A stretch of DNA of 40,504 bases from an uncultured Bacteroidota bacterium (lineage in GTDB: Bacteria > Bacteroidota > Bacteroidia > Chitinophagales > LD1): the NCBI GenBank assembly GCA_903919075.1, contig CAIXGR010000081.1, positions 1-40,504 on the forward strand, in the 5' to 3' direction. The first letter of the stretch is position 1. Every line of letters starts with the position of its first letter. Shown here piece by piece: positions 4,567 through 40,483 of this stretch. The notes under the pieces are model-generated. The model did not search any database and was not told the origin of the DNA. It saw only the letters and a program-made list of their open reading frames with translations. The position numbers and the translations under genes are program-made.

Positions 4567-4598
4567 CAGCATTCGGATTTCTCATTAAAAATGAAGAA

Positions 4599-5531: not shown

Positions 5532-5556
5532 AAGAATTAGAAACTATAAAAATACA

Positions 5557-5973: not shown

Positions 5974-5983
5974 AGCATGATAA

Positions 5984-6103
5984 AACAAATTTTCAAATAG
6001 AGCTTCTAACGCTCCGGTAAAAACGGAGGTGGAAGAGGCTCCCCGATATTTTATTGTATTAAGTAAAGGAGGAAAGAAAAAAAACACACCGGCCAACCGG
6101 TAA
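5984..6103 (+). other. Coding-like remnant or small reading frame between ftsL and ftsI
   Basis: The frame from 5984 to the stop at 6101-6103 is open and reads as a plausible soluble peptide (SNAPVKTEVEEAPRYFIVLS, then Lys-rich). It has no start codon in frame; the nearest ATG (5977) is in another frame and stops after seven codons. It may be a decayed or frameshifted small gene, or chance. In a cluster with otherwise tiny gaps, this 137-bp spacer is unusual. Confidence 0.25.
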
Positions 6104-6110
6104 AAATTAA

Positions 6111-8204: not shown

Positions 8205-8233
8205 AGAGTTTTTGAAGAAATTATAAATTGATA

Positions 8234-9700: not shown

Positions 9701-9715
9701 ATCAATAAGTAAGCA

Positions 9716-10969: not shown

Positions 10970-10990
10970 TAAGAAATTAGTAGAAACAAG

Positions 10991-12328: not shown

Positions 12329-12372
12329 ATGCAAATTTTCGATTAAGAAACAAGGATGAAGAATATATACTA

Positions 12373-13557
12373 ATGAAACTATCGGTTAACAAAGTATTCA
12401 CTTACCTACAGGGCGATAAAATGATATGGCTTACAGTCATGCTATTGTTCCTTGTTTCTATGTTGGCGGTATATAGCAGCACCAGCACACTCGCATACAA
12501 AATGCAAGTAGGCAGCGAAAAATATTTAATGAAACAAATCGCAATGGCTGTTGCAGGTATAATGCTAATGTTTTTTACGCACCTCATTGATTATAAATAT
12601 TACTCACGTATTGCGCAGCTACTATGGTTGATAAGTATTCCGCTGCTCATTTATACAATGATTTTTGGTTCGCGGATTAATGATGCCAGCCGGTGGATAA
12701 CGCTACCGGTAGTTGGTTTAACCTTTCAAACTTCCGATTTGGCAAAGCTCGCCCTGATCATGTTCCTGGCGCGGCAGCTGTCAATAAAACAAGACCAAAT
12801 CACAGATTTTAAAGAAGCTTTTCTACCAATTTTATTGCCCATTGTATTAACCACAATTTTAATTGCACCGGAGAATCTTTCTACGGCGCTCTTATTATTT
12901 TGCACTTCAGTTTTTGTAATGTTCCTGGGCAGAATTGCCATGAAACATATTTTGATGTTATCGGGTTTAGGTATTGTAGCCCTTTCAATATTCATTTTAT
13001 TATTGTTTGTAGTTCCTGAAACTACTTTGAAACATGTATCCCGTGCACCTACATGGAAACACCGTATCGAAAATTTTGCACATGGTATAAGAGGAGATAA
13101 AGAAGATGCCGACGAAGACTTCCAAATGCAGCAGGCAAAAATTGCCATTGCAAAAGGTGGAATATTTAAAATAAACCCCGGTGGAAGTGAACAGAAAAAT
13201 TTTCTCCCCCATCCTTATTCTGATTTTATTTACGCCATTGTTATTGAAGAATATGGATTACTAGGTGGAGCGTTATTAGTAGGATTATATCTTTTCTTTT
13301 TATACCGGTGTATTCGTATAGTTATTAAATCTCCTAAAGCCTTTGGCGCATTATTAGCAGTTGGTTTGGGCACGGCCCTTGTTATACAGGCCATGATAAA
13401 TATGGCGGTAGCGGTTAATTTAATGCCGGTTACCGGCGTTACCCTGCCGTTAGTAAGTATGGGCGGTAGCTCAGTAATTTTCACATCCATAGCATTCGGA
13501 ATTATTTTAAGTGTTAGTAGAAATATAGAAGAAGAAGAAAACGCTGCACTGGCATGA
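12373..13557 (+). CDS. ftsW: Peptidoglycan glycosyltransferase FtsW (SEDS family)
   Basis: Polytopic SEDS-family polymerase that makes septal glycan strands from lipid II as partner of FtsI. Family features include ASRWITLPVVGLTFQTSDLAK near residues 100-120 (quoted in part: RWITLP, QTSDLAK), APENLSTALL, the PHPYSDFIYAIVIEEYG stretch and the C-terminal LPLVSMGGSS. At 394 residues with about ten membrane helices it is typical. The position between murD and murG, and the 4-bp ATGA overlap with murG (13554-13557), indicate translational coupling. RodA is the alternative SEDS identity but context favours FtsW. Confidence 0.93.
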   Translation: MKLSVNKVFTYLQGDKMIWLTVMLLFLVSMLAVYSSTSTLAYKMQVGSEKYLMKQIAMAVAGIMLMFFTHLIDYKYYSRIAQLLWLISIPLLIYTMIFGSRINDASRWITLPVVGLTFQTSDLAKLALIMFLARQLSIKQDQITDFKEAFLPILLPIVLTTILIAPENLSTALLLFCTSVFVMFLGRIAMKHILMLSGLGIVALSIFILLLFVVPETTLKHVSRAPTWKHRIENFAHGIRGDKEDADEDFQMQQAKIAIAKGGIFKINPGGSEQKNFLPHPYSDFIYAIVIEEYGLLGGALLVGLYLFFLYRCIRIVIKSPKAFGALLAVGLGTALVIQAMINMAVAVNLMPVTGVTLPLVSMGGSSVIFTSIAFGIILSVSRNIEEEENAALA

Positions 13558-14651
13558 GCGAACTAAGAGTAATAATAAGCGGAGGTGGTTCCGGTGGACA
13601 TATTTTCCCGGCCGTAGCTATTGCCAATGCTCTCAAAAAGAGAAATCCTGAAACCAAAATTTTATTCGTTGGGGCAAATGGCCGCATGGAAATGGAAAAA
13701 GTACCACAAGCTGGCTACGATATTAAAGGACTAAATATTGCAGGCTATCAGCGCGCATCAATAGTTAAAAATATTGCCCTGCCATTTAAACTTATAGATA
13801 GTCTGTTCAGCGCATATAAAATAGTAAAGCAATTTCGCCCTGATGTGGCAATAGGTGTAGGCGGATATGCAAGCGGGCCACTATTGCGCGCCGCAAGTTT
13901 TGCAGGCGTTTCCACAGTAATACAAGAACAAAACTCTTTCGCAGGCATTACCAATAAATTATTGGCGAAGAGCGCAAAAGTAATTTGCACCGCTTATGAA
14001 GGAATGGAAAAAGTTTTCCCAAAAGAGAAAATTATATTAACCGGTAATCCCGTTCGTGCTGAAATATTAAACCCTAATGTAAATAGAAGCGAAGCGATAA
14101 AATATTTTGGTTTAGATGAAAACAAGAAAACTATTTTTATTACCGGTGGTAGCTTAGGCGCACGCACTTTAAATCAAAGTGTAGAAGCCGCGGTAGAAAG
14201 AATAAAAAATTCAGGTGCACAAATAATATGGCAAACCGGTAAAATATATTTCGAAGACTGTAAAGTTGTTGCAAAAGGCGTTTCAAACTTAAAAGCCATA
14301 CAGTTTGTCGACCGCATGGATTATGCTTATGCCTGTGCCGATGTAATTATATCAAGGGCCGGTGCGCTTTCAATTTCCGAATTGCAACTGATAGGCAAGC
14401 CTGTTATTTTGGTGCCCTCGCCTAATGTTACTGAGAATCACCAGATGCATAACGCCATGGCTTTGGTAAATCAAAAAGCGGCCCTTATGATTGAGGACAG
14501 TGAGGCCAAATTAAATTTAATAGGCGCAGCACTTGATTTGCTCAATAATGAAGAAATACGAAAGCAACTAAGCACCAACATTAAAAAAATGGGCATTGCC
14601 GATGGTGCCGAAAGAATTGTTGATGAAATATTAAAAGTTATAAAACGATAA
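13554..14651 (+). CDS. murG: Undecaprenyldiphospho-muramoylpentapeptide beta-N-acetylglucosaminyltransferase MurG
   Basis: Membrane-associated GT-B glycosyltransferase that adds GlcNAc from UDP-GlcNAc to lipid I, giving lipid II. The N-terminal glycine loop GGGSGGHIFPA is at residues 10-20; VGVGGYASGP, the donor-site loop TGGSLGARTLNQ, and the SRAGALSISEL segment follow in the family order. The length of 365 residues is normal. The start overlaps the ftsW stop by four bases and murC starts directly after the stop, so translation of ftsW, murG and murC is probably coupled. Confidence 0.95.
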   Translation: MSELRVIISGGGSGGHIFPAVAIANALKKRNPETKILFVGANGRMEMEKVPQAGYDIKGLNIAGYQRASIVKNIALPFKLIDSLFSAYKIVKQFRPDVAIGVGGYASGPLLRAASFAGVSTVIQEQNSFAGITNKLLAKSAKVICTAYEGMEKVFPKEKIILTGNPVRAEILNPNVNRSEAIKYFGLDENKKTIFITGGSLGARTLNQSVEAAVERIKNSGAQIIWQTGKIYFEDCKVVAKGVSNLKAIQFVDRMDYAYACADVIISRAGALSISELQLIGKPVILVPSPNVTENHQMHNAMALVNQKAALMIEDSEAKLNLIGAALDLLNNEEIRKQLSTNIKKMGIADGAERIVDEILKVIKR

Positions 14652-16016
14652 ATGAAAGCACTAAAAGAAATTAAGAAGGTTTACTTTCTCGGAATAGGAG
14701 GAATTGGAATGAGCGCGCTGGCACGTTATTTTAAATGGCAAGGGGCCGAAGTAAGCGGGTACGATAAAACCCAAACCCACCTAACCGGTGAATTAGAGAA
14801 AGAAGGCATTCAGGTAATTTTTGAAGATAATGTTGATTTGATGCCTAAAGATGTTGACCTCGTTATCTACACACCGGCTATCCCAAAAGAACATAAAGGC
14901 TTGAATTATTATAAGACTAATAATTTCGAATTAAAAAAACGTTCAGAAGTTCTCGGCCTTATTTCTGCCGATAAATTCACTATTGCAGTTGCCGGTTCGC
15001 ATGGTAAAACCACCGTAAGCTCAATGATTGCGCACATACTTACACAATCAGGCTTCGGATGCACAGCATTTTTAGGTGGTATTCCAATCAATTATAATTC
15101 GAATTTTTTGCCCGGCCAGAATGATGTAGTAGTAGTTGAAGCCGATGAATTCGACCGTTCATTCCACCGGTTAAGCCCTGATATGGGAGTAATTACCGCT
15201 GTTGATACCGACCATTTAGATATCTACGGAAGCAAAGAAGCTATCGATGAAGCGTTCATTGAATTTGCCAATAGAATTTCCGAAGAAGGTTTTTTAGCCA
15301 TTAAATCTGGTCAGAGCATTGAAGATAATCTACCGGTGTTGGATAAAGCATTCTATTCTTTAAATGATAATAATGCCGATGTTTTTTGCAGCAACTATTG
15401 GTTGCTCGATGGGGGTTACCGGTTCGACATAAGTTATTATGGCAAAAAAATAAGTGGCTTTAAACTTAACCTTGGCGGGTTTCATAATGTTGAAAATGCA
15501 ATTGCAGCAATATGCATCGCCAAAGAGTTAAAAATAACCGATGAACTTATAAAAGAAGCCCTTGCTTCGTTTAAAGGAATTAGAAGAAGATTCGAAACAC
15601 TTGTAAAAAACGATAAAGTAGTTTTTATTGACGACTACGCTCATCACCCCGAAGAAATTCGCGTGTTCCTGGAGTCGGTAAAAGAATTGTATCCGAGTAA
15701 AAAAATAACAGCAGTATTTCAGCCTCATCTTTATTCCAGAACCAAAGATTTGGCAAAAGAATTCGCCAACAATTTGAGTATTGTCGATGAAGTAATCTTG
15801 CTTGACATTTATCCCGCCCGCGAGCAGCCTATTGAAGGAGTAACCTCAGATTTAATATATAATCAGCTTACCAGTAACGAAAGGGCCTTAATTAACAAAG
15901 ATGAACTGGTGGAAACTATTCGAAATAAAAAAGACATTGAAGTTCTGGTTACAATAGGCGCCGGTGATATTGATAAATATCTTGCAGAGATTAAAGATAT
16001 TCTCAGCCAGCGGTAG
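14652..16016 (+). CDS. murC: UDP-N-acetylmuramate--L-alanine ligase MurC
   Basis: First Mur ligase, adding L-Ala to UDP-MurNAc. It has the UDP-binding GIGGIGMSALA motif at residues 14-24, the ATP loop VAGSHGKTTVSSM at about 113-125, DTDHLDIYG, the C-terminal FIDDYAHHPEEI and FQPHLYSRT, all typical of MurC. At 454 residues it is full length. The start ATG abuts the murG stop codon. It is the last gene before a 236-bp gap holding a family A repeat, after which ftsQ begins; murB and ddl, which adjoin murC in some phyla, are not here. Confidence 0.95.
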   Translation: MKALKEIKKVYFLGIGGIGMSALARYFKWQGAEVSGYDKTQTHLTGELEKEGIQVIFEDNVDLMPKDVDLVIYTPAIPKEHKGLNYYKTNNFELKKRSEVLGLISADKFTIAVAGSHGKTTVSSMIAHILTQSGFGCTAFLGGIPINYNSNFLPGQNDVVVVEADEFDRSFHRLSPDMGVITAVDTDHLDIYGSKEAIDEAFIEFANRISEEGFLAIKSGQSIEDNLPVLDKAFYSLNDNNADVFCSNYWLLDGGYRFDISYYGKKISGFKLNLGGFHNVENAIAAICIAKELKITDELIKEALASFKGIRRRFETLVKNDKVVFIDDYAHHPEEIRVFLESVKELYPSKKITAVFQPHLYSRTKDLAKEFANNLSIVDEVILLDIYPAREQPIEGVTSDLIYNQLTSNERALINKDELVETIRNKKDIEVLVTIGAGDIDKYLAEIKDILSQR

Positions 16017-16050
16017 ATTTAAATTAAACCTGTTCGATAATTTTAGAGCG

Positions 16051-16101
16051 TTTTTTTGCAGTGGAGCCGGTTCTCCCTTTAGGGAGTTAGAGGGTGCGCG
16101 G
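16051..16101 (+). repeat. Intergenic hairpin repeat, family A copy 3
   Basis: T-run with GCAG, then CTCCCTTTAGGGAG and TTAGAGGGTGC, matching the copy at 3784-3835 almost base for base over the core. It sits in the 236-bp murC-ftsQ gap (16017-16252), the largest break inside the dcw cluster. Apart from this element the gap shows only AT-rich sequence. Small reading frames crossing it are translations of the repeat. Confidence 0.65.
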
Positions 16102-16252
16102 GGCGGCTGTAATTTCCCCCTGTCTTTTGTGCTATTCACTCTGGCATTATCCACAATTTCTGTCAATAATTAAGCGTTGTAATTACAATAAAGAATCGGA
16201 CTTTTGGGCGGACACTAACATATATCCATTCACTATATAAGGATTTTCAAAA

Positions 16253-17053
16253 GTGAAAAAATTCTGGCGCATATTAAAAAAAGTTCTACTGGTTGCAACT
16301 GTGTTGTCGGCGGCATGTGTTTTTGTCATTGTTCTGTCTTCGGCCATAAAAAAGCAAAATCAACTTGTATGCAACAGTATACAGGTAAAAATCGACTCCG
16401 ACTCCGGTGTTGGCTTCTTAAGTGATAATGAAATTAAGGACAAAATCAACTATTTAAACGGGGGTAGTACCATAGGCAAACGCTTGCCTGAGCTTGATTT
16501 GCGGAAGTTAGAGGCTGAAATAAAGAAAAACCCTTTTGTAAAGGATGCCGAGATTTATATGGACCAGTCGCAAAACATGACTGTTGAGGTTTTTCAAAAA
16601 CGACCTATTGTTCGAGTAATCAACAATGATGGTGTTAGTTATTATATAGGAGAAAATAATGATAAAATACCGCTCAATGATAATTTTACGCCTTATGTAG
16701 CCATTGCGCTTGGCAATGTTGAAACACACAAAGACTCAAAACGCGATAGTACAATACAGGCCGCTCTTTACAAAATGGTTCAGTATATAAGAAAGGATGA
16801 ATTTTTAGAGGCCTTTGTTGACCAGTTGTATGTAAAGGAAAATGGAGAAATGGAAATAATACCCAAAGTAGGTGGGCATATTATACGTTTCGGTCCCGTT
16901 GATGATAGCATGGCGGAAAAATTTGGAAGGCTTAAAGTTTTTTACACCGAGGGATTGAGGAAGATGGGTTGGACAAAATATAAAACCATTGATTTAAGAT
17001 ATAAAGACCAATTGGTTTGCGAAAAAAGAGACTCAACTAATAAGAAACAATAA
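16253..17053 (+). CDS. ftsQ: Cell division protein FtsQ/DivIB
   Basis: Bitopic division protein whose periplasmic POTRA and beta domains bind FtsB/FtsL and hold FtsWI inactive until septation. It has a short basic cytoplasmic tail, a membrane helix at about residues 12-31 and a periplasmic region of about 235 residues. The POTRA-like segment starts near residue 41 (CNSIQVKI) and contains the typical NPFVKDAEIYMD-like strand. Start is GTG at 16253; no better ATG is upstream in frame. At 266 residues it is normal. Identity rests on architecture plus the position before ftsA, from which it is separated by six bases. Confidence 0.88.
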   Translation: MKKFWRILKKVLLVATVLSAACVFVIVLSSAIKKQNQLVCNSIQVKIDSDSGVGFLSDNEIKDKINYLNGGSTIGKRLPELDLRKLEAEIKKNPFVKDAEIYMDQSQNMTVEVFQKRPIVRVINNDGVSYYIGENNDKIPLNDNFTPYVAIALGNVETHKDSKRDSTIQAALYKMVQYIRKDEFLEAFVDQLYVKENGEMEIIPKVGGHIIRFGPVDDSMAEKFGRLKVFYTEGLRKMGWTKYKTIDLRYKDQLVCEKRDSTNKKQ

Positions 17054-17059
17054 CATTAT

Positions 17060-18475
17060 ATGGCAGTTGCACACAATTACGAAAACCCAATTATAGTTGG
17101 CCTTGATATTGGAACAACGAAAATTGCTGCAATTGTAACCCGCCGCGATCAATTCGGTAAGCTTGAAATTATTGGTTTGGGCAAAGCGCCATCATACGGC
17201 GTTACCCGTGGAGAAGTTACCAATATCAAACAAACTACCGATGCTATTCTTGAAGCAGTAGCCGATGCCGAAAAACAATCCGGTCATAAAATAAATGTTG
17301 TTTATGTGGGTATTGCCGGCCAACACATTGCCAGCAAACAGAACAGAGGTATTTATACCTTACCCGGGCCCGATGAAGAAATTACACGCCAGCATGTTAA
17401 AGATATGGTGGAAGATATGCACCGCCTTGCTCTAGATCCGGGCGAAAGAATAATACACGTTCTTCCGCAAGAGTTTACCGTAGATAACATGCACGGCATT
17501 AAAGACCCGATAGGTATGTGCGGAAGCAGGCTGGAAGCCAACTTTCATATTATAACCGGTAAGGTAGCGGCAGCACAAAACATAAAAAAATGTGTTGAAC
17601 GTGCAGGCTTACAAATGATGGGCTTAATTCTTGAGCCACTGGCATCATCAGCTTCTGTATTGCATGAAGATGAAATGGAAGCCGGTGTTGTTTTAGTTGA
17701 TATTGGTGGTGGAACTACCGATGTTGCAATTTTTAAAGATGGAATCATCCGCCACACAGCAGTAATTCCTTTTGCCGGAAATATTATTACCGAAGATATA
17801 ATGGAAGGATGCAAATTGCTAAGGCCACAAGCCGAGAAGCTTAAAATTGCATTCGGAAGCGCTTTGCCTGCTGAAACACATGAGAATGAAATTATCTCTA
17901 TCCCTGGTATTGCCGGTAGAGATAGAAAAGAAATATCAATGCGCACATTGGCTCACGTAGTTAATGCCCGCATGGAAGAAATTTTTGCACAGGTTTATTT
18001 CGAAATAAAAAGTTCTGGCTATTCTAACTCTTTAAATGCAGGTATTGTGGTAACCGGGGGCGGTTCTCAGCTTAAGCATTTAAAACAGTTGGTTGAATAT
18101 GCTACCGGTCTTTCTACACGTATTGGTTATCCAACTTCGTTCCTTGCTAAGAATAATAAGGACGAATTGAAAAACCCGATGTATGCTACCGGTATTGGGT
18201 TATTGTTGAAAGGCTACGACGAAGTAGATGAAATGACCGAGATTGAAAAAATGCGCTTGTTTGCAGACAAGCAGGAACAAACTGTTACGGTTGAAGAAAC
18301 AAAACCTGTGGATATTGAAAACCATGAAGTTTTTGAAGAAGAAACACCAATGGAGCACGACCATATAGTTGATGAAACGGCAAATAAAAAGAAAAAAGGA
18401 AATCTTTTGCAGCAAATGTTTTCATCAGTAAAAAACTGGTTCGAAGACGAGAATGTGAACGGGGATTTTGAATAA
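17060..18475 (+). CDS. ftsA: Cell division ATPase FtsA
   Basis: Actin-fold protein that tethers FtsZ to the membrane and recruits later division proteins. Phosphate 1 motif GLDIGTTKIAAIV is at residues 14-26, phosphate 2 motif DIGGGTTD at 214-221, and an adenosine-type motif VVTGGGSQL follows. The C-terminal end carries a short amphipathic helix (LLQQMFSSVKNWF) matching the membrane-targeting sequence of FtsA, after an acidic linker. At 471 residues it is slightly longer than E. coli FtsA, due to this linker. It is directly upstream of ftsZ (49-bp gap). Confidence 0.95.
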   Translation: MAVAHNYENPIIVGLDIGTTKIAAIVTRRDQFGKLEIIGLGKAPSYGVTRGEVTNIKQTTDAILEAVADAEKQSGHKINVVYVGIAGQHIASKQNRGIYTLPGPDEEITRQHVKDMVEDMHRLALDPGERIIHVLPQEFTVDNMHGIKDPIGMCGSRLEANFHIITGKVAAAQNIKKCVERAGLQMMGLILEPLASSASVLHEDEMEAGVVLVDIGGGTTDVAIFKDGIIRHTAVIPFAGNIITEDIMEGCKLLRPQAEKLKIAFGSALPAETHENEIISIPGIAGRDRKEISMRTLAHVVNARMEEIFAQVYFEIKSSGYSNSLNAGIVVTGGGSQLKHLKQLVEYATGLSTRIGYPTSFLAKNNKDELKNPMYATGIGLLLKGYDEVDEMTEIEKMRLFADKQEQTVTVEETKPVDIENHEVFEEETPMEHDHIVDETANKKKKGNLLQQMFSSVKNWFEDENVNGDFE

Positions 18476-18524
18476 AAATAATAGATACTGGATTTTAAAT
18501 ATAGAACAGTAAAATAAAAAAAAT

Positions 18525-20162
18525 ATGGAGCCATTATTTCAGTTTGATTTACCAAAGGACCAGGCATCTATTATTAAAGTGTTTGGTGTAGGCGGTGGCG
18601 GAAGCAATGCCGTTAACCATATGTACGACCAAGGCATTGTGGGGGTAAACTTTGTGGTTTGCAATACCGATTCGCAAGCATTGGATATAAGTTTGATTCC
18701 TAATAAAATTCAGCTTGGGCCCGCATTAACACAAGGTTTGGGTGCAGGTGCAAAACCTGAAGTGGGCATGAAATCGGCCGAAGAATCTAGCGACCCGATA
18801 AAAGATTTGCTTTCTAAAAACACCAAAATGGTTTTCATTACCGCCGGTATGGGTGGTGGAACCGGTACCGGTGCCGCACCGGTGGTGGCAAGAATAGCCC
18901 GCGAGATGGGCATTTTAACGGTAGGTATCGTTACCACTCCGTTTTGGTTCGAAGGCAAAGCGCGTTACAACCAGGCAATGGAAGGCATTGAAAAATTGAA
19001 AGAATATGTCGACACGTTACTTATCATCAATAACGATAGAATACGCGAAATGTACGGCAACCTTACACGCCGCGAAGCTTTCAATCATGCAAATAACATA
19101 TTAGCTACTGCTGCAAAATCTATTTCTGAAATTATTACGGTGCCAGGCGAAATCAACGTCGACTTTGCCGATGTTCAAACCGTAATGAAGAATGGTGGCT
19201 CGGCTATTATGGGCTGTGCCACTGCTGAAGGTGATGATCGCTCAATGCGTGCTGTTCAAGGCGCTATCAATTCGCCACTGTTGAATGATAGCGATATCAA
19301 AGGTGCTAAGAAAGTGTTAGTTAATATAACTACCGGTAGCCGTCAGGTAACTATGGATGAGATTGGTGAGATTATGGAATACGTGCAGGAGTCAGCAGGT
19401 AGCACAGATATTATTCTGGGTGCTTGCGATGATCCTTCTCTAGGTGATAAACTTTCTGTTACCATTATAGCAACAGGCTTCGAATCAAGCAGAAAACCAA
19501 CTTATACTGAACAGAAGGTAGTAAAAGTATACGAGCTTACTGACCAGCCAGTAGTTGAAGAAACAGCAACACCAGCACCAGTTGTTGAACAAATTGAAGA
19601 GCCGGTAATGACTGAAACTGTTGAAGAAACTAAAACAGAAGAATTGCCATTAGTTTCTTTCCAAATTGAAGAAGATACTTTTTCATTATTCCCCTCAGTA
19701 ACTGAAGAAACTGAAACAGAAAATGTAATTGAGTTCGACGTAACCCGCGAAGAGCAAAATATTGTTGTTGAAGAAACTGTAGCAAGTATAACAGAGGAAG
19801 TTGTTAGTGCTAAAGAAGAACCAATAGCACAACCACAACAGGAAAAGAAAGAAGAGTATGTGGTTTATACTAAAAAGAGCTTTGAAACCGATTCTTCTTC
19901 TGCATTCCCACAAGATGATTTAACTAAACAGTTGGAAGACCGCAAAAAAATTCTTTCAGGTTTAAGCTACCGTTTTGGCAACAAACAAAACGTTAGTGAA
20001 TTAGAGAACGAACCAGCTTACAAAAGAAAAAATATAGAATTGAACGGAGAACAGAATTTTTCTACTAACAGCGAAATTTCAAGGTTCAGTGTAAATGATA
20101 GCGGTAACGATCGTCCGGAAATTAAAAAGAACAATTCGTTCTTACATGATAATGTAGATTGA
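18525..20162 (+). CDS. ftsZ: Cell division GTPase FtsZ
   Basis: Tubulin-like GTPase that forms the Z ring. N-terminal nucleotide elements are GVGGGGSNAV (21-30), the tubulin signature GGGTGTG at 110-116 and TTPFWFEG. The globular core ends near residue 330. A long acidic Glu/Val/Thr-rich linker of about 130 residues follows, then a short basic patch (YKRKN) and the terminus NNSFLHDNVD. This makes 545 residues, well above the roughly 385 of E. coli. The tail lacks a canonical IPxFLR peptide; an SFLHDNVD-like end appears to replace it. The gene closes the dcw cluster and is followed by a terminator hairpin. Confidence 0.96.
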   Translation: MEPLFQFDLPKDQASIIKVFGVGGGGSNAVNHMYDQGIVGVNFVVCNTDSQALDISLIPNKIQLGPALTQGLGAGAKPEVGMKSAEESSDPIKDLLSKNTKMVFITAGMGGGTGTGAAPVVARIAREMGILTVGIVTTPFWFEGKARYNQAMEGIEKLKEYVDTLLIINNDRIREMYGNLTRREAFNHANNILATAAKSISEIITVPGEINVDFADVQTVMKNGGSAIMGCATAEGDDRSMRAVQGAINSPLLNDSDIKGAKKVLVNITTGSRQVTMDEIGEIMEYVQESAGSTDIILGACDDPSLGDKLSVTIIATGFESSRKPTYTEQKVVKVYELTDQPVVEETATPAPVVEQIEEPVMTETVEETKTEELPLVSFQIEEDTFSLFPSVTEETETENVIEFDVTREEQNIVVEETVASITEEVVSAKEEPIAQPQQEKKEEYVVYTKKSFETDSSSAFPQDDLTKQLEDRKKILSGLSYRFGNKQNVSELENEPAYKRKNIELNGEQNFSTNSEISRFSVNDSGNDRPEIKKNNSFLHDNVD

Positions 20163-30267: not shown

Positions 30268-31038
30268 ATGAATTATACCCTTATTACCGGCGCTTCTAAA
30301 GGAATTGGTAAAGCCGTAGCTTTCGAAGCGGCTGACCGGAAAATGAATTTATTGCTGGTTGCCCGCTCAAAAGATTTATTGGAGCAATTAGCCTCAGAAC
30401 TTTCAACCAAGAATGTATCAGTTAAAACTTTTGTTGCCGACTTATTGGAAGATGACGCCCCAAAAAAAATATTTCAGTTTGCCAAAGAAAACTCACTGAA
30501 TGTAAACATGCTTATAAATAATGCCGGCGCTGCGCTTTACGGCAATTTCGAGGATGCAGATTTTCAGAAGAATTTAAATGTTATGAAGCTGAATGTTGAT
30601 GCCTGTGTAAAAATGGCCTACGAGTTTTTAAAACAGACTGATGCCAGCCAAAGGCGCTACATACTAAATACAGTTAGCCTGGGCGCTTACCAACCCCTGC
30701 CTACTATGGCTATATACGCATCCAGCAAGGCATTTATGCTTTTCTTTTCAAGGGCGCTTCGGCAGGAATTGAAACCCAAAAATGTTTATGTAACTGCTTT
30801 ATGCCCTGGTGGTGTTGAAACCGAATTTTTTGTTCCCGCAGGCTTAGGTAAGGTGGTTGAAAAGAATGCCCGCTATATGATGGGTGCCGATAGAGTGGCT
30901 AAAGAAGGTTTAGATGCCCTTATGAAAAATAAAAGTGTCGTAATCCCGGGCTTTATCAATAAAATGACTGCCCTGGTGTCAAAACTCTTCCCGCACGATA
31001 TAGTAGTTCCCGTAGCGGGTAATGTTTATAAAACCTAG
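30268..31038 (+). CDS. Short-chain dehydrogenase/reductase (SDR)
   Basis: NAD(P)-dependent oxidoreductase of the classical SDR family, 256 residues from the ATG at 30268-30270. The frame is open from a TTG at 30169, but the added 33 residues precede the Rossmann strand with no homologous role, so the shorter form is preferred. The cofactor motif TGASKGIG is at residues 7-14, NNAGAALYG near 80, the catalytic Ser in NTVSLGAY and YASSKAF as YxxxK. The C-terminal LFPHDIV end is hydrophobic. Substrate is unknown. The lipid kinase gene follows after 36 bp and may be cotranscribed. Confidence 0.85.
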   Translation: MNYTLITGASKGIGKAVAFEAADRKMNLLLVARSKDLLEQLASELSTKNVSVKTFVADLLEDDAPKKIFQFAKENSLNVNMLINNAGAALYGNFEDADFQKNLNVMKLNVDACVKMAYEFLKQTDASQRRYILNTVSLGAYQPLPTMAIYASSKAFMLFFSRALRQELKPKNVYVTALCPGGVETEFFVPAGLGKVVEKNARYMMGADRVAKEGLDALMKNKSVVIPGFINKMTALVSKLFPHDIVVPVAGNVYKT

Positions 31039-31074
31039 TACGCTTTTTACCTATTTCATAATTATTTGCCTACC

Positions 31075-32013
31075 ATGAAAAAGAAAATTGCTTTTATAGT
31101 GCATGGTAAAATCAAAAAGCATCAGCAAATCATTTCGCAGATAAAGGAAGTATTTTCTGCCAGGTACGATTTAAGCTTCCACATAAGCCAATATTCCCGC
31201 CATGCTATCCAACTTTCTTCCTCAGCCATACAAGATGGCGCCTCCTTTATTATTGCAGTAGGTGGCGATGGAACCCTTAACGAAGTAGCAAATGGAGTAA
31301 TGAATGCCAAAAACAATGGATTTATTGATGATTTGCAGTTGAATAACGTAAAAATTGGCGTTCTGCCACGTGGAACAGGAAACGATTTCTGTAAAACAAT
31401 AAGGGTTAGTTACGATTTGCAGGCACTTAAAAAGCTTATTGAAAACGATAGTTATAAGCCTGTTGACCTAGGCTTGGCAACATTTCAAGGCACTAACGGT
31501 AACACCGCAAAACACTATTTCATAAACATTACCGATATAGGCCTTGGCGGTATTATAGCACGCAAGCTTTCGGGCTCTTCAAAACTGCTGGGGGCTGTTA
31601 TTACTTATCAGGCTATAATTATCAGTTCCTTGATTAGTTATCGGCATAAAAAGATAAAAGTAAAGGCCGATAGCTTTGATTATGAGGGCAAAGTAATGAG
31701 TTTTATTGCCGCGAATGGTAAATATTTTGGGGCAGGTTTGGGTATAGCACCAAATGCGCTGCCTGATGACGGCCTGTTTTCGGCAGTTATAATTGGCAAA
31801 ATATCTATTTGGGACTACCTGATGAATCTGGGCCGAATACGGAAATGCTTGAAAGTAGAACACCCTGAAGTGAAGTATTTCGATGCCCGTGAAATCCATA
31901 TCGAATCGCTAACCGAGCCACTTCCTATAGATATGGATGGTGAGTTTGTGGGTTATTCTCCATTGAAAATCAATATAGTACCAAAGGTTTTAACGTTTAT
32001 AGCACCTCTATAA
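31075..32013 (+). CDS. Diacylglycerol-kinase-family lipid kinase (YegS/BmrU-like)
   Basis: ATP-dependent lipid kinase, 312 residues from ATG at 31075 (a TTG three codons earlier is unlikely). The N-terminal catalytic DAGK domain shows VGGDGTLNEVANG (GGDGT at 63-67) and PRGTGNDFCKT (98-108). The C-terminal beta-domain includes GLGGIIA, GKYFGAGLGIAPNA, DDGLF and DMDGEFVG, as in YegS-type enzymes. Diacylglycerol, ceramide or another long-chain lipid could be the acceptor. It is paired with the SDR gene upstream, suggesting a shared lipid-related function, which is inference. Confidence 0.88.
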   Translation: MKKKIAFIVHGKIKKHQQIISQIKEVFSARYDLSFHISQYSRHAIQLSSSAIQDGASFIIAVGGDGTLNEVANGVMNAKNNGFIDDLQLNNVKIGVLPRGTGNDFCKTIRVSYDLQALKKLIENDSYKPVDLGLATFQGTNGNTAKHYFINITDIGLGGIIARKLSGSSKLLGAVITYQAIIISSLISYRHKKIKVKADSFDYEGKVMSFIAANGKYFGAGLGIAPNALPDDGLFSAVIIGKISIWDYLMNLGRIRKCLKVEHPEVKYFDAREIHIESLTEPLPIDMDGEFVGYSPLKINIVPKVLTFIAPL

Positions 32014-32052
32014 AAGCAAAAATCCCTGCCTTTCGACCGGGATTTCGCTTTG
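32012..32052. terminator. Bidirectional terminator between lipid kinase and array gene 1
   Basis: AAATCCC and GGGATTT flank a 12-base loop, and outer AAAGC/GCTTT-like segments extend the stem. It lies between the convergent lipid kinase gene and the first small secreted protein gene, and has A/T tracts on both sides. Confidence 0.7.
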
Positions 32053-32075
32053 ACCCTAAAACCAAAACTTAACTA

Positions 32076-32375
32076 TTACTTTTTAATATACTGTTTCTTT
32101 CCGTTTTTGTCAAGATAATAATTGCCACCTTTTGGGCCAGTATATACAGTTTCGCCTTTTGGGCCTTTTAAAGCTGCATTAACTTTATCGGTTGATTTAG
32201 TTTCTGTTGTTTTTGTTTCAGTTTTTGTAGTAGTTGGTGTACTAGTTGTTTTTGTTGTTTCAGTCTTAGTAGCTGATTTGTTTTGGCCAGTAGTTGCTTT
32301 CGCACCTTGTGCACTTACGCTTAACGAAAAAGCAACGGCTAAAAGCATCATTGCTAAATTTTTGATTGTTTTCAT
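32076..32375 (-). CDS. Small secreted Lys/Thr-rich protein with PBCV-type basic adaptor-like tail (array member 1)
   Basis: A 99-residue protein. Residues 1-22 form a signal peptide ending VSA before QG. A Lys/Thr/Glu-rich low-complexity region (about 25-65) follows, then a structured tail with VYTGPKGGNYYLDKNGKKQY, which strongly resembles the PBCV-specific basic adaptor domain (GPKGGxYYxxxNGKKxY). This small domain is known from chloroviruses and various bacterial exported proteins; its function is unclear. The signal peptide is closely related to that of array members 3 and 4, but the tail is unique. Own promoter-like box at 32415-32422 and terminator at 32012-32052. Confidence 0.75.
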   Translation of the reverse strand: MKTIKNLAMMLLAVAFSLSVSAQGAKATTGQNKSATKTETTKTTSTPTTTKTETKTTETKSTDKVNAALKGPKGETVYTGPKGGNYYLDKNGKKQYIKK

Positions 32376-32414
32376 GTTTTTGATTGTTTTATTGGTGATT
32401 TAAAAGGTTGATGC

Positions 32415-32422
32415 CAAATGTA
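32415..32422 (-). promoter_or_regulatory. TAnnTTTG promoter box of array gene 1
   Basis: TACATTTG on the minus strand, its G 40 bp before the ATG. The other four array genes have T(A/G)nnTTTG boxes at 42-49 bp, and the shared position supports a real -7 element. Confidence 0.5.
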
Positions 32423-32469
32423 GCGAGGCAATTTTTTTATAAAACTCATTTAACTTTCGTTAACCAAAA

Positions 32470-32500
32470 AAAATCCTGGCTTTCAAAGGGCCAGGATTTT
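32470..32500 (-). terminator. Terminator of array gene 2
   Basis: AAAATCCTGGC (32470-32480) and GCCAGGATTTT (32490-32500) are perfect 11-bp arms with a 9-base loop and flanking A/T tracts, 17 bp beyond the stop of array gene 2. Confidence 0.75.
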
Positions 32501-32516
32501 ACAAAATTTCGGGTTA

Positions 32517-32756
32517 TTACTGTTTTTTAGTAGATGAACCTGTAGTTGTAGTCTTAGTAGACTTAATGGTTGTTTTAGCAGATTTGCCTTTGCTTCCTTT
32601 GCTTCCTTTAGCTGCTGGCTTAGCTTCAGTCTTAGTTGCAGCAGTTTTTGTGGTAGCCGTTTTCGATTCTGTTTTGGTAGTTGTACCTTGTGCACTTGCG
32701 CTAATTGCGATGGTGGCTGCTACTAAAAGCAAAGCCATACTTTTGATCATTTTCAT
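32517..32756 (-). CDS. Small secreted Lys/Thr/Ala-rich protein (array member 2)
   Basis: A 79-residue protein with signal peptide 1-22 (MKMIKSMALLL... ending ASA before QG). The mature part is low complexity: Thr/Lys/Ala, then KGSKGSKGKSAK, ending in STKKQ. It lacks both the adaptor-like tail of member 1 and the AATGAKEAPKK end of members 3 to 5. The real gene is supported by the signal peptide, dedicated promoter box at 32798-32805 and terminator, and paralogy with neighbours. Another frame at 32483-32695 is a shadow. Function unknown. Confidence 0.7.
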   Translation of the reverse strand: MKMIKSMALLLVAATIAISASAQGTTTKTESKTATTKTAATKTEAKPAAKGSKGSKGKSAKTTIKSTKTTTTGSSTKKQ

Positions 32757-32794
32757 GTTTTTGTTTTTTTAGTTGTGAACGAATGATTGCTATT

Positions 32795-32816
32795 ATCCAA
32801 ACGTAATGCCAATCTT
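32795..32816 (-). promoter_or_regulatory. Conserved promoter-like box of array gene 2
   Basis: On the minus strand this segment contains AAGATTGGCA followed by TACGTTTG, an exact TAnnTTTG match at 32798-32805, its G 42 bp before the start codon. Array genes 3 and 4 carry nearly the same 22 bases at the same distance. Confidence 0.55.
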
Positions 32817-32856
32817 TATTTAAAGCCGGCATTTAACTTTCGTTAACCAGGGGCAT

Positions 32857-32890
32857 AAAAAAATCCCGGCAATAGGGCCGGGATTTTTTT
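32857..32890 (-). terminator. Terminator of array gene 3
   Basis: AAAAAAATCCCGGC (32857-32870) and GCCGGGATTTTTTT (32877-32890) are perfect 14-bp arms around six bases, immediately beyond array gene 3 on the minus strand. Confidence 0.8.
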
Positions 32891-32907
32891 TAAAACTTAA
32901 GAAACAA

Positions 32908-33165
32908 CTATTTCTTAGGAGCTTCTTTAGCACCAGTAGCTGCAGCAGGTTTTACTGTAGTTTTGGTTTCAGTTTTTGTTGTTTTTGTTTCTGTGCTTGT
33001 GCTTTTGCCAACTGGTTTTGCAGCTGGTTTTGTTTCAGTTTTAGTAGTAGTTGTTGTTTTAGTCTCAGTTTTTGCAGCTGGTTTAGTTTCTGTACCTTGT
33101 GCGCTTGCGTTAAATGCAATTGTTCCTGCTACTAAAAGCATTGCTAAATTTTTGATCGTTTTCAT
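32908..33165 (-). CDS. Small secreted Lys/Thr/Ala-rich protein (array member 3)
   Basis: An 85-residue protein with signal peptide MKTIKNLAMLLVAGTIAFNA, cleaved after the SA of ASAQG. The mature protein consists of KTETKT/KPAAK-type repeats and ends AAATGAKEAPKK. The signal peptide is nearly the same as in member 4 and related to member 1, while the tail is shared with members 4 and 5. Own promoter-like box (33204-33225) and terminator (32857-32890). A basic, flexible secreted peptide is predicted; function unknown. Confidence 0.7.
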   Translation of the reverse strand: MKTIKNLAMLLVAGTIAFNASAQGTETKPAAKTETKTTTTTKTETKPAAKPVGKSTSTETKTTKTETKTTVKPAAATGAKEAPKK

Positions 33166-33203
33166 GTTTTTTGTTTTTTAATTGTGAACGAATGATTGCT
33201 GTT

Positions 33204-33225
33204 ATCCAAACACAGTGCCAATCTT
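33204..33225 (-). promoter_or_regulatory. Conserved promoter-like box of array gene 3
   Basis: AAGATTGGCAC then TGTGTTTGGAT on the minus strand, corresponding to the box of gene 2 with TGTGTTTG (33207-33214) in place of TAnnTTTG; its G is 42 bp before the ATG. Confidence 0.5.
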
Positions 33226-33273
33226 TTTAAAGCCATTGATTTTAACTTTCGTTAACTAATCGGTCATTGCCCT

Positions 33274-33314
33274 AAAAAATAAATCCCAACCATAAGGTCG
33301 GGATTTATTTTTTA
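33274..33314 (-). terminator. Terminator of array gene 4
   Basis: An AAAAAATAAATCCC arm and a GGGATTTATTTTTT arm form a long stem with one mismatch near the loop, just beyond the stop of array gene 4. Confidence 0.8.
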
Positions 33315-33332
33315 GAAACTCAACAAGGTCGA

Positions 33333-33554
33333 TTATTTCTTAGGGGCTTCCTTAGCACCAGTTGCAGCTGCAGGTTTTGCGGCTGGTTTAGCAGCAGGCT
33401 TTGCAGTTACTTTAGTTTCTGGTTTGGCAGCAACTTTAGCACCAGTTGCAGCAGCCGGCTTAGCTTCTACTTTAGTGGTTGAACCTTGTGCACTAGCGCT
33501 TAGGGTGATTGAGGCAGCTACTAAAAGCATTGCCAGATTTTTGATCGTTTTCAT
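33333..33554 (-). CDS. Small secreted Lys/Ala-rich protein (array member 4)
   Basis: A 73-residue protein with signal peptide MKTIKNLAMLLVAASITLSA cleaved near SAQG. The mature region is made of (V)xAKPAAK-type units and contains AAATGAK twice, once internally and once in the terminal AAATGAKEAPKK. This is an internal duplication of the tail motif. It has less Thr and Glu than members 1, 3 and 5. Own promoter-like box at 33593-33614 and terminator. Function unknown. Confidence 0.7.
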   Translation of the reverse strand: MKTIKNLAMLLVAASITLSASAQGSTTKVEAKPAAATGAKVAAKPETKVTAKPAAKPAAKPAAATGAKEAPKK

Positions 33555-33592
33555 GTTTTTTGTTTTTTAATTGTGAACGAATAATTGCAGTA

Positions 33593-33614
33593 ATTCAAAC
33601 ACAATGCCAATCTT
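33593..33614 (-). promoter_or_regulatory. Conserved promoter-like box of array gene 4
   Basis: AAGATTGGCAT then TGTGTTTGAAT on the minus strand, with TGTGTTTG at 33596-33603 and its G 42 bp before the ATG, as in genes 2 and 3. A TTAAC(T)TTC(C/G)TTAACC segment lies further upstream in each of these units. Confidence 0.5.
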
Positions 33615-33656
33615 TTTTCCTTCGTTCCCTTTAACTTTCCTTAACCAATGCCCTAA

Positions 33657-33695
33657 AAAAATAAATCCCGGCCCAAGGGCCAGGATTCATTTATA
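33657..33695 (-). terminator. Terminator of array gene 5
   Basis: AAATCCCGGCCC pairs with GGGCCAGGATT (one G-U or mismatch) around a short loop, with A/T-rich flanks, 20 bp beyond the stop of array gene 5. Confidence 0.7.
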
Positions 33696-33714
33696 GAAAT
33701 TTCAACTAAGTTGA

Positions 33715-33942
33715 TTATTTCTTAGGAGCTTCTTTAGCGCCAGTTGCTGCAGCAGGTTTTGCTGTAGTTTTAGCAGCAGGTTTAGCTGTAGTTTTAGTTT
33801 CAGTCTTAGTAGCAGCTGTTTTAGTTTCTGTTTTAGTAGTAGCTGTTTTAGTTTCTGTTTTAGCAGGTGCTGTTGTTGTTCCTTGTGCGCTTACAGCTAA
33901 TACTGCAAAAGCTACAGACAATGTCAAGAAGATTTTTTTCAT
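33715..33942 (-). CDS. Small secreted Lys/Thr/Ala-rich protein (array member 5)
   Basis: A 75-residue protein whose signal peptide (MKKIFLTLSVAFAVLAVSA) differs from the other four, while its tail AAATGAKEAPKK matches members 3 and 4. The mature part is a run of KTETKTA(A/T)T units. At DNA level a 27-bp unit is repeated in tandem at 33814-33840 and 33841-33867, so length change by slippage or recombination is likely. First gene of the array in transcription direction, with TAAATTTG box at 33991-33998. Function unknown. Confidence 0.7.
   Translation of the reverse strand: MKKIFLTLSVAFAVLAVSAQGTTTAPAKTETKTATTKTETKTAATKTETKTTAKPAAKTTAKPAAATGAKEAPKK
33814..33867. repeat. Two tandem 27-bp units inside array gene 5
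   Basis: AGCTGTTTTAGTTTCTGTTT begins both units (33814 and 33841); the first 23 bases are identical. Each unit encodes nine residues, so copy-number change keeps the reading frame. Confidence 0.7.
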
Positions 33943-34381
33943 GGCCTTTTTGTTTTTGTTTTTTGTTGGGTTAAATAAAATTTAAGTCGGCAAATTTACA
34001 ATTGAACCGATAGGTTTTAATTCATTTAACGTTCTATAACAACTTTTAAGAAATCCAACTTTTTCTTAAAAATGACATTTTTAACATGGTTTCTGCGCAA
34101 AATTACTCAAAAAGGCGACCTTTTTATGCATTTTTTGGGAAAAGCGAATAAAATAACATTCTCGAAATTAAACCCATTAAGCCCGTAATCGGCACTCAAT
34201 TTCTATCATTCTCATCGCCTATTTAGTCAAACACAGCCGTTAAAAGAATTAATTGACGGCTCTTTTTCTGCCGTTTACTGCAGTATTTATCCAGCTTCAT
34301 GCAAACGAAGTTTAATGGTTGGCTAAAAAATTTTTTCTTTGCCGCAGTTATTCCAAATTATAAAGAACAAAAAAGGAAATT
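33943..34381. other. Divergent intergenic region between array gene 5 and fabG
   Basis: No gene is supported. On the minus strand TAAATTTG (33991-33998) is a TAnnTTTG box, its G 49 bp before array gene 5. A terminator-like hairpin lies at 34235-34267. The rest is AT-rich and must contain the fabG promoter; a TTG...CTTTG pair near 34319-34341 is a weak candidate with short spacing. Confidence 0.5.
34235..34267 (+). terminator. Orphan terminator-like hairpin
   Basis: AGCCGT (34235-34240) pairs with ACGGCT (34256-34261), followed by CTTTTTCT. It suits a plus-strand transcript but no plus-strand gene lies between here and 32013, so either a small RNA ends here or the hairpin is fortuitous. Confidence 0.35.
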
Positions 34382-35125
34382 ATGATGCTTCAAAATAAAA
34401 CTGCTCTTATAACCGGAGGCAGCCGTGGTATTGGTTATGCTATTGTAAAAAGGTTTGCCGAAGAAGGTTGTAATGTTGCCTTTACCTATTTAAGTTCCGA
34501 GGAAAAAGCAAAACAATTCGAAGCTGAGCTGAATGCCATGGGCATTAAAGCCAAAGGATATAAATCCAACGCCGGTTCATATACCGAAAGCGAAAAATTA
34601 ATTGAAGATGTAGTAAAAGAATTTGGCACTATCGATGTTTTAGTAAACAACGCCGGTATTACTCGCGATAATCTAATTTTAAGAATGACGGAACAACAAT
34701 GGGATGAGGTAATAACCGCTAACTTAAAATCAGTTTTTAATCTAACTAAGCATGTTTCTAAAATAATGCTTAAAAACAAAAAGGGCTCTATCATCAACCT
34801 AACTTCCATAGTGGGCGAAATGGGTCAGGCAGGCCAGTCAAACTATGCAGCTTCAAAAGCTGGCATTATTGGTTTTACAAAATCTATTGCCGATGAGTTT
34901 GGTTCACGCAGCATTCGTTCCAACGCCATTGCACCGGGTTTTATCGAAACCGATATGACAGGCGTGTTAAATGAAGAAACTAAAAAAAGTATTCTTGACA
35001 AAGTACCTATGAAACGCATGGGCCGTGCCGAAGAAGTAGCAAACGCCGCTTTGTTCCTGGCAAGCGATCTTTCAACCTACGTATCAGGGCAAGTGCTTAG
35101 TGTATGCGGTGGAATGAGCCGGTAG
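34382..35125 (+). CDS. fabG: 3-oxoacyl-[acyl-carrier-protein] reductase FabG
   Basis: NADPH-dependent reductase of the fatty-acid elongation cycle. Cofactor motif TGGSRGIG is at residues 11-18, NNAGITRDNL from 89, catalytic Ser142 (LTSIVG), Tyr155 and Lys159 (YAASK), with NAIAPGFIETDMT and the terminal SGQVLSVCGGM. NNAGITRDNLxxRM and the PGFIxTDMT segment are typical of FabG rather than of general SDRs. The length of 247 residues is standard. ATG at 34382 and 34385 are both possible starts. The VWA-like gene follows after 48 bp. Confidence 0.92.
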   Translation: MMLQNKTALITGGSRGIGYAIVKRFAEEGCNVAFTYLSSEEKAKQFEAELNAMGIKAKGYKSNAGSYTESEKLIEDVVKEFGTIDVLVNNAGITRDNLILRMTEQQWDEVITANLKSVFNLTKHVSKIMLKNKKGSIINLTSIVGEMGQAGQSNYAASKAGIIGFTKSIADEFGSRSIRSNAIAPGFIETDMTGVLNEETKKSILDKVPMKRMGRAEEVANAALFLASDLSTYVSGQVLSVCGGMSR

Positions 35126-39017: not shown

Positions 39018-39641
39018 ATGAAAAATACAGCAACGAAGCCCGCTTCTAATAACAGCAACCAAAAAGAAAAAGTAAATTCTAATGTAGAAAAGGGTTTGCG
39101 CAATTTGTTTGTAGATAAACTGAAAAGTATCTACTGGATAGAAAAAGCGCTCGTTATCGCAATTCCAAAGATGGTTAAAAATGCAACAGCTCCGGAATTG
39201 GGAAAAGCACTTACAGCGCATCTGGAAGTTACCAAACAGCACGTTACACGATTGGAAGAGGTTTTCACTACAATTGGCGAAAAGGCAGAAGAAAAAAAGT
39301 GTGAGGTAATGGAGATGCTAATTAAGGAAGCAGGAAAAATAATGGAAAATACAGAAGAGGGCGTAGTGAGAGATGCCGCAATTATTTCAGCAGGCCAGAA
39401 GGTTGAACATAACGAAATGGCATCCTATCATACTCTTAGCGCTTTAGCCAAAACACTTGGAGAAACAGCGGCGGTTAATTTATTGGATGAAACTTTAAGT
39501 GAAGAAAAGGAAGCCGATGAAAAACTTTCGGAAATTGCTGAATCTGTAGTTAAACTTGGAGCAACGAACGAAGACAACCATCACGAAGAGGAACATGAAA
39601 TGAGCAATTCTGGTGGAAACACAAAAGAAAGACACAAGTAA
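39018..39641 (+). CDS. DUF892/YciF-like ferritin-like helical-bundle protein
   Basis: A 207-residue protein of the YciE/YciF (DUF892) family: LRNLFVDKLKSIYWIEKAL near residue 30, repeated acidic and His-containing helices, and GQKVEHNEMASYHTLSALAK in the second half. The family forms a four-helix ferritin-like bundle and is linked to stress responses in other bacteria; the exact reaction is unknown. It starts with a Lys/Asn-rich segment and ends in a His/Glu-rich tail (NHHEEEHE), perhaps metal binding. The upstream motif pair is shared with the gene at 40002. A terminator follows at 39670. Confidence 0.85.
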   Translation: MKNTATKPASNNSNQKEKVNSNVEKGLRNLFVDKLKSIYWIEKALVIAIPKMVKNATAPELGKALTAHLEVTKQHVTRLEEVFTTIGEKAEEKKCEVMEMLIKEAGKIMENTEEGVVRDAAIISAGQKVEHNEMASYHTLSALAKTLGETAAVNLLDETLSEEKEADEKLSEIAESVVKLGATNEDNHHEEEHEMSNSGGNTKERHK

Positions 39642-39922: not shown

Positions 39923-40001
39923 TATTGTCAAAATCCCACTGCTGAAGCGGAAGGTTTTGTTTATAAGCGGTGATATTTTATCATTAGGGAAAAAAATAAA
40001 A

Positions 40002-40483
40002 ATGGAAGAAAATGAAAATCAAATGGCTGATAACATGACAACAGACCGTGGTATGTTATCTAAAGAGTCTGAGGGCCGGGAAATTACGGACGATGCTTTG
40101 CTAAAAACAAACAACATGAATATAGAAAAGTCAATTGAGGTGTTAAACACGCTCATCGAAATAATCAACGACAGAATTACGGGATATGAAACCGCCGGTG
40201 AAGAAGCAGAAGAACCCGATTTAAAATTGCTGTTTTCCCAATTTGCCAAAACAAGTAGAAAGTTTAAAGAAGAGCTTGTTACAGAAATTCAAAAATTAGG
40301 TGGTATACCAACGCAGGAAACGAAAGCAGAAGGCAAGGTTTTCAGAGCATGGATGGAATTTAAAACAGTGGTTACGGCCCATCACAGTGTATGTCTTCAA
40401 ACCAAAGTGAACTTTTAGAGAGTTTTCAATTCAGAGAATTTAAATTTGTGAATGCAAAGTTAGAAGATTTGTTTTTAAAGTAA
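40002..40483 (+). pseudogene. DUF2383/PA2169-like four-helix-bundle gene, frameshifted near its 3' end
   Basis: The frame from ATG 40002 runs to 40418 (138 residues). Residues about 39-118 match DUF2383/PA2169 proteins: SIEVLNTLIEIINDRITGYE, then DLKLLFSQFA, then KVFRAWMEFKTVVTAHH. After that the family pattern (an LLxSCEFGED-like segment) is not in this frame but appears in the frame two bases off as SELLESFQFREFKFVNAKLE, ending at 40481-40483. An indel between about 40380 and 40405 is implied, and the normal final helix is missing as well. The first frame alone may still make a shortened protein. An open stretch from a TTG at 39957 is not the likely start. Confidence 0.6.

Follow-up and report, generated by a model that had tools for sequence, protein, structure and literature searches.

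Five tandem genes for small, basic proteins with an export signal

The window analyzed here, a stretch of 40,504 nucleotides (nt) from an uncultured Bacteroidota bacterium, is contig C81 of a genome of 3,529,374 bases in 97 contigs, which was the scope of the whole-genome searches. On its minus strand lies a tandem array of five open reading frames (ORFs), members 1 to 5, which begin with ATG, encode 99, 79, 85, 73, and 75 amino acids (aa), respectively, and are spaced 381, 409, 389, and 388 from start to start. These genes had been called in a first-pass annotation made from the letters of the window, and their coordinates (Table 1) were confirmed, as was its description of each product as a low-complexity, basic body carrying an export signal. 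All five signal peptides are of the Sec type and, as had been claimed, end in SAQG. A genome search with member 3 recovered the other four members, all at E up to 1e-4; the only extra match, at E 0.11, is interrupted by an internal stop. The array is flanked by a YegS-type lipid kinase and by short-chain dehydrogenases. A noncoding RNA reading was set aside, as an Rfam scan of positions 31000-35000 returned no family at its gathering score.

The five mature chains have a net charge of +7.9 to +11.9 and an isoelectric point (pI) of 10.3-11.1, and a charge-hydropathy comparison classes all of them as disordered. When they were pooled with the family proteins from other genomes described below, a positive net charge and a pI of 10.0-11.1 were found in 48 of 48 proteins (47 distinct, L078 being the same as L136); this set is without L139, L151, L154, the far copy of locus L059, which has no ATG, and the L052 copy. 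Little sequence is common across the family, the mean column identity in alignment A3 being 34%, and we infer that selection on the body acts through its charge and disorder rather than its sequence.

The reading that we prefer, tentatively and at somewhat less than an even chance, is that the products are exported, disordered polycations of the envelope that would resemble the Escherichia coli acid shock protein Asr in action without being its homologues. Asr is likewise small, basic, of low complexity and predicted to be disordered, and it has a signal peptide; the likeness is one of working, not of descent. One report (PMC10746267) presents it as a disordered chaperone that aids outer-membrane integrity. 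Small secreted precursors in tandem would also be found if the genes encoded modified or cleaved peptides, for example ribosomally synthesized and post-translationally modified peptides (RiPPs) of the MNIO type, and member 1 weakly matches the chryseobasin precursor profile (NF050124) with 18.5 bits. That score, however, is under the cutoff of 50, the five mature chains are free of cysteine, and no maturation enzyme was recognized among the flanking lipid kinase and dehydrogenases; we regard such precursors as very improbable. PF18962, a C-terminal sorting domain of the type IX secretion system and the one sorting-domain type searched for by itself, gave no match to any of the five members at E up to 1; the same library does find this domain in the window protein at 2278-3666.

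Table 1. Positions of the array genes and their associated elements in the window
Feature	Coordinates	Strand	Basis and remarks
Member 1, founder type	32076..32375	-	99 aa; K/T/E-rich body between signal peptide and PF08789 tail; syntenic orthologues
PF08789-like C-terminal domain of member 1, residues 64-99	32079..32186	-	Pfam score, AlphaFold2 pLDDT, pN/pS; four predicted beta strands
Member 2	32517..32756	-	No tail, KGSKGSKGK motif, 79 aa
Member 3	32908..33165	-	No tail, AAATGAKEAPKK end, 85 aa
Member 4	33333..33554	-	No tail, AAATGAKEAPKK end, 73 aa
Member 5	33715..33942	-	Signal peptide of its own type, conserved in relatives; 3' part resembles that of members 3 and 4; 75 aa
Hairpin, member 1	32016..32049	-	Terminator-like, z -2.5
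Hairpin, member 2	32471..32500	-	Terminator-like, z -4.6
Hairpin, member 3	32857..32890	-	Terminator-like, z -4.3
Hairpin, member 4	33277..33310	-	Terminator-like, z -7.6
Hairpin, member 5	33659..33692	-	Terminator-like, z -4.9
Upstream box GTTAACGAAAGTTAA, member 1	32450..32464	-	Box scan
Upstream box GTTAACGAAAGTTAA, member 2	32833..32847	-	Box scan
Upstream box GTTAACGAAAGTTAA, member 3	33242..33256	-	Box scan
Upstream box GTTAAGGAAAGTTAA, member 4	33631..33645	-	Box scan
Weaker upstream box GTTATAGAACGTTAA, member 5	34026..34040	-	One mismatch to GTTAANGAANGTTAA

Selection, exchange and relatives of the array

Sequence comparison indicates that the five ORFs behave as real, maintained genes, in line with the earlier view that the copies are retained, because the tail and, in members 1-4, the signal-peptide codons are under purifying selection, and because the locus is syntenic in relatives. 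When members 1-4 were compared over their first 24 codons, the proportion of nonsynonymous differences (pN) was below that of synonymous differences (pS) in six of six pairs (pS 0.35-0.70, pN 0.09-0.26). Among 11 tail-bearing proteins, member 1 included, pN was below pS in 55 of 55 pairs over 29 tail codons (mean pS 0.60, pN 0.14) and in 53 of 55 pairs over the first 20 codons, and the tail of member 1 gave a pN/pS of 0.14-0.31 against 10 relatives.

Direct repeats run in register across the array, the longest family having three copies (211 nt, 71-79%). These repeats, together with the synteny and the purifying selection, make the array more than a chance pattern. The first-pass annotation had placed members 1, 3, and 4 in one signal-peptide group apart from member 2; that grouping was not borne out as stated, as members 1-4 are of one signal-peptide and promoter type with 5' identities of 64-82%, and the distinct signal peptide that it had seen in member 5 stands (52-55% identity to the others). 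Its idea of mixed modules was right, as member 5 shows. Over 95 bases upstream plus 66 of coding sequence, the 5' part of this gene has 70-71% identity with the far members of three relatives, to whose far copy it is, by this comparison, orthologous; the 3' part (the last 12 codons plus 65 bases past the stop) is 79% identical to member 4 and 70% to member 3, and 56-62% to the relatives' far members. Such split affinity points to exchange inside the array, of which gene conversion or unequal crossing-over would be the simplest account. In member 3 (46/75, expected 43.5) and member 4 (30/70, expected 35.0), the share of repeated 5-mers with identical codons was close to that predicted from codon usage, and in member 5 it was higher (45/60, expected 34.0), which marks some of its DNA-level repetition as recent; member 1 had too few to judge (3/5), and member 2 had none.

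In a genus sample of 18 genomes, the window's own included, a profile of the tail-bearing members matched nine at E up to 0.01, the other nine being without a detectable member. The comparison of related genomes proposed with the first-pass annotation showed a syntenic locus with one to five copies: copies adjoin the YegS-type lipid kinase in the window (five), in genome G012 (three), and in G013 (four), and four copies in G006 adjoin a FabG-like dehydrogenase on a contig that stops short of the kinase. A single tail-bearing copy lies beside the kinase in G001, G004, and G016 and elsewhere in G010, and G003 has a tail match with no recognizable signal peptide in the ORF list. In all four multi-copy arrays the tail is on the kinase-side copy and a MKKIFLT-type signal peptide is on the far copy. 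The far copy of G012 (L059:1272, G012:C507) has CTG in place of the ATG of its relatives, which reflects either an unusual start codon or a fault in the assembly. A K/T-rich, secreted, tail-less protein of the same type also lies outside the array of G006 (L052:4675-4872, G006:C107), in a 5.3 kb locus without a box at up to two mismatches.

In named genomes, tail-bearing relatives were found at 21 loci, their hosts ranging from uncultured Bacteroidetes and Chitinophagales to Flavobacterium sp., Spirosoma, Larkinella, Flavihumibacter, and Desertivirga. In a phylum sample searched at E up to 1e-6, at least 25 of 296 genomes (own included) and at least 11 of 140 genera had a match, the counts being lower bounds since no more than 13 candidates were scored per genome; 22 of the 24 matching genomes other than the window's own had a single one. 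The relatives of the tail-bearing member are thus spread in a scattered way over the phylum. These K-rich proteins (L069, L071-L079, L136-L154) have the signal peptide, basic body, and tail of member 1, to which they are homologous by profile, but differ from the array in being mostly single and often longer. No tail-less K-rich neighbor was found in these 29 loci, with L079, L151, and L152 missed by the scan filter; the sole one in the 30-locus scan is a secreted, low-complexity, cysteine-rich protein near the tail match of L070 (L070:2267-2575). In Larkinella terrae, two adjacent tail-bearing genes (L075:5737-6944) form an independent small tandem, the second ending mid-tail. No description of this Bacteroidota family was found among the open-access papers searched.

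Tail-less copies occur in four genomes, always with a tail-bearing copy alongside. Most simply, the tail-bearing form of member 1 would be the ancestor, or founder; the array is an expansion of one gene family, in which members 2-5 most likely arose as tail-less copies within a lineage. The description of the array as system-like accordingly overstates it: no fixed partner gene was found next to it. A phage origin was rejected, as member 1 had no match in phage records and the matches of the five members to PHROG were weak (best 22.4 bits).

The copy number of one to five, the nine genomes without a member, the exchange inside the array and the recent repetition in member 5 would all fit a selfish or near-neutral duplication of a low-complexity gene, kept by recombination and with extra copies of little benefit. 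Purifying selection on signal peptides and tail, the retention of the boxes and hairpins described below, and the positive charge of all 48 proteins speak against such a duplication, and we consider it improbable.

The tail domain of member 1

The PBCV-adaptor-like tail noticed in the first-pass annotation was recovered at 22.7 bits against PF08789 (PBCV basic adaptor; gathering cutoff 20.4) over residues 73-99 of member 1; members 2-5 were unmatched by this profile. The domain itself is already known, and among the open-access papers searched none matched its name or accession. At E up to 0.05, 8 of the 21 tail-bearing proteins of alignment A3 match PF08789 and 13 do not. An AlphaFold2 model of member 1 made with 21 sequences had blocks of predicted local distance difference test (pLDDT) scores of 49-58 over the first 60 residues and 88-92 beyond, with tail strands predicted at residues 64-70, 76-79, 85-88, and 94-97. 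Sequence searches of solved structures gave no clear relative (best E 0.2), and a fold search of the PDB gave nothing under E 0.001 (best 1.1).

Among named viral adaptor-domain proteins compared by Foldseek, none fell below E 0.001. The protein M1H517 of chlorella virus IL3A aligned with a root-mean-square deviation (rmsd) of 1.1 over 31 columns (probability 0.99, E 0.099) and that of Virus NIOZ-UU159 with an rmsd of 2.2 over 30-31 columns (probability 0.95, E 0.087); protein Q84496 of PBCV-1 aligned poorly (rmsd 8.6, E 0.30). As a comparison of models, this is agreement with the tail of member 1, not proof. The PF08789 proteins of chlorella viruses and others are like member 1 in being basic, by profile score in the tail and, weakly, by predicted fold, but the array is bacterial, has an export signal, a disordered body and no kinase, and its members 2-5 are without the domain.

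These likenesses bear on an alternative in which the products would be released from the cell and, as part of a biofilm matrix, would attach to acidic polysaccharide or extracellular DNA. The PF08789 tail would then do the binding, an analogy drawn from chlorella virus virion proteins that are DNA-associated. The profile score above cutoff and the superposition on M1H517 favor this alternative, and two PBCV-1 adaptor-domain kinases of pI 10.8 are listed among the virion-DNA-associated proteins in Table 1 of PMC3281028. In the portion of that paper that bears on them, however, nothing places the association with DNA in the adaptor domain; moreover, the best fold matches have E values near 0.1, Q84496 superposes poorly and the tail is absent from four of the five members. 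DNA binding by the products is possible, and a matrix role as such seems to us rather unlikely, ranking behind the envelope polycations proposed above.

Upstream boxes, hairpins and the proposed mode of action

The first-pass annotation had given each gene its own promoter-like box and its own strong terminator. Of the former claim, a common element survives: a box, GTTAAnGAAAGTTAA, is shared by members 1-4 and ends 74-76 bp before the ATG, and a scan for sigma-70-type promoters stayed at chance (6 found, 5.3 expected). As for terminators, the stretch downstream of each of the five genes folds better than the mean of its dinucleotide shuffles (z -2.5 to -7.6), but a consensus terminator scan found none on the minus strand, and one on the plus strand against 3.0 expected; we think that the consensus rule fails where the stem absorbs the T run.

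In members 1-4 the box has the form of a direct repeat, GTTAA-N5-GTTAA. At up to one mismatch, GTTAACGAAAGTTAA occurs at four places in the genome, each upstream of one of these members, and its reversed control at none; the looser GTTAAN5GTTAAA occurs six times, four of them within the array (control, three). Of 23 regions upstream of genes in the window and in relatives, 12 contain GTTAANGAANGTTAA with one mismatch at most and 15 contain it when two are allowed; in these 15 the distance from its end to the start is 65-85 bases, the CTG of the far L059 copy being 75 bases away. In the 18 genus genomes, GTTAAYGAAMGTTAAA at up to one mismatch gave 15 matches, five perfect and two others being in array-type loci. 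Exact boxes mark arrays; inexact boxes do not. By eye, a TAnnTTTG-like element, which we take to be a Bacteroidota promoter motif, follows the box in several copies, including members 1 and 2, L061, and L068, and the position of the box would fit an activator site. A palindromic reading, TTAAC-GAAA-GTTAA, was dropped since members 1-3 are the only ones in the window that fit it and the direct repeat is conserved more widely. For some copies a sigma-54 promoter (GG-N10-G) was considered and likewise dropped, because the GG is not present in all and there is no GC at -12.

At two loci (L065 and L066), which belong to two other genomes, a founder-type gene is divergent from a pair encoding a histidine kinase and a LytTR regulator, and the proteins of the two pairs are 51% and 68% identical. 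The histidine kinase was found at E below 1e-60 in 5 of the 18 genus genomes (G000, G006, G011, G012, and G013), and the regulator, at 54-57% identity, in the same five plus G008. Both are present in all four multi-copy genomes (G000, G006, G012, and G013), but these four perhaps just form a single clade. At E 0.01 no array member was detected in G011 or G008, and the founder-bearing G001 (73% complete), G004, G010, and G016 gave neither kinase nor regulator at cutoffs of 1e-20 and 1e-40. In G000 the LytTR regulator, one candidate for binding the box, lies at C50:22527-23210, and the 12 kb around its pair hold neither an array gene nor a box at up to one mismatch. Founder genomes that lack the pair speak against a fixed link, and LytTR control was kept as a lead only.

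Under the preferred reading as envelope polycations, an activator bound at the box would sit immediately ahead of each promoter and switch the copies on together; the products would cross by Sec into the periplasm or beyond and remain unfolded, and their bulk positive charge would bind polyanions such as lipopolysaccharide, capsule, or extracellular DNA. Alternatively, the charge might prevent aggregation of positively charged envelope proteins, as reported for E. coli Asr. Additional copies would raise the dose, and the beta domain of the founder could dock the chain to one target.

Several observations weigh against this interpretation. The Asr profile NF033636 gave 18.0 bits for member 1 against a cutoff of 50, and members 2-5 were unlisted at E up to 1. 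The relatives were collected with a K-rich profile that included a basic tail, so their basic pI is partly built in, and the nine genus genomes without a member suggest a function that is dispensable or replaced. The box is absent, even at two mismatches, from 8 of the 23 upstream regions, among them those of the tail-bearing copies of L059, L060, L064, and L067. Furthermore, 8 of the 15 GTTAAYGAAMGTTAAA matches lie outside arrays and the reversed control gave 37, and single inexact matches therefore carry no meaning.

Elsewhere in the window, positions 4096-20162 hold a long and ordinary run of cell-wall and division genes of the mraZ to ftsZ type (by eye), and DUF892 and DUF2383 genes, which we presume to be stress-linked families, are adjacent at 39018-39641 and 39957-40418.

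As a broader and quite speculative picture, improbable as a whole, the family might be an undescribed one, phylum-wide but scattered in the Bacteroidota, of exported disordered polycations that have their docking module, the C-terminal beta tail, in common with proteins found on the DNA of algal giant viruses. In this picture one lineage might have turned the family into a tunable array, in which a single dedicated activator box controls a tail-bearing anchor together with recombining copies that lack the tail, perhaps with a LytTR two-component system behind it. For the family itself, PF08789, a named domain without known function, gains a testable bacterial setting in which tail-bearing and tail-less copies stand naturally side by side. 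With its copies that swap parts, the array would further provide a small, self-contained example of selection for protein charge over sequence, and its defined DNA box is a handle for finding the regulator.

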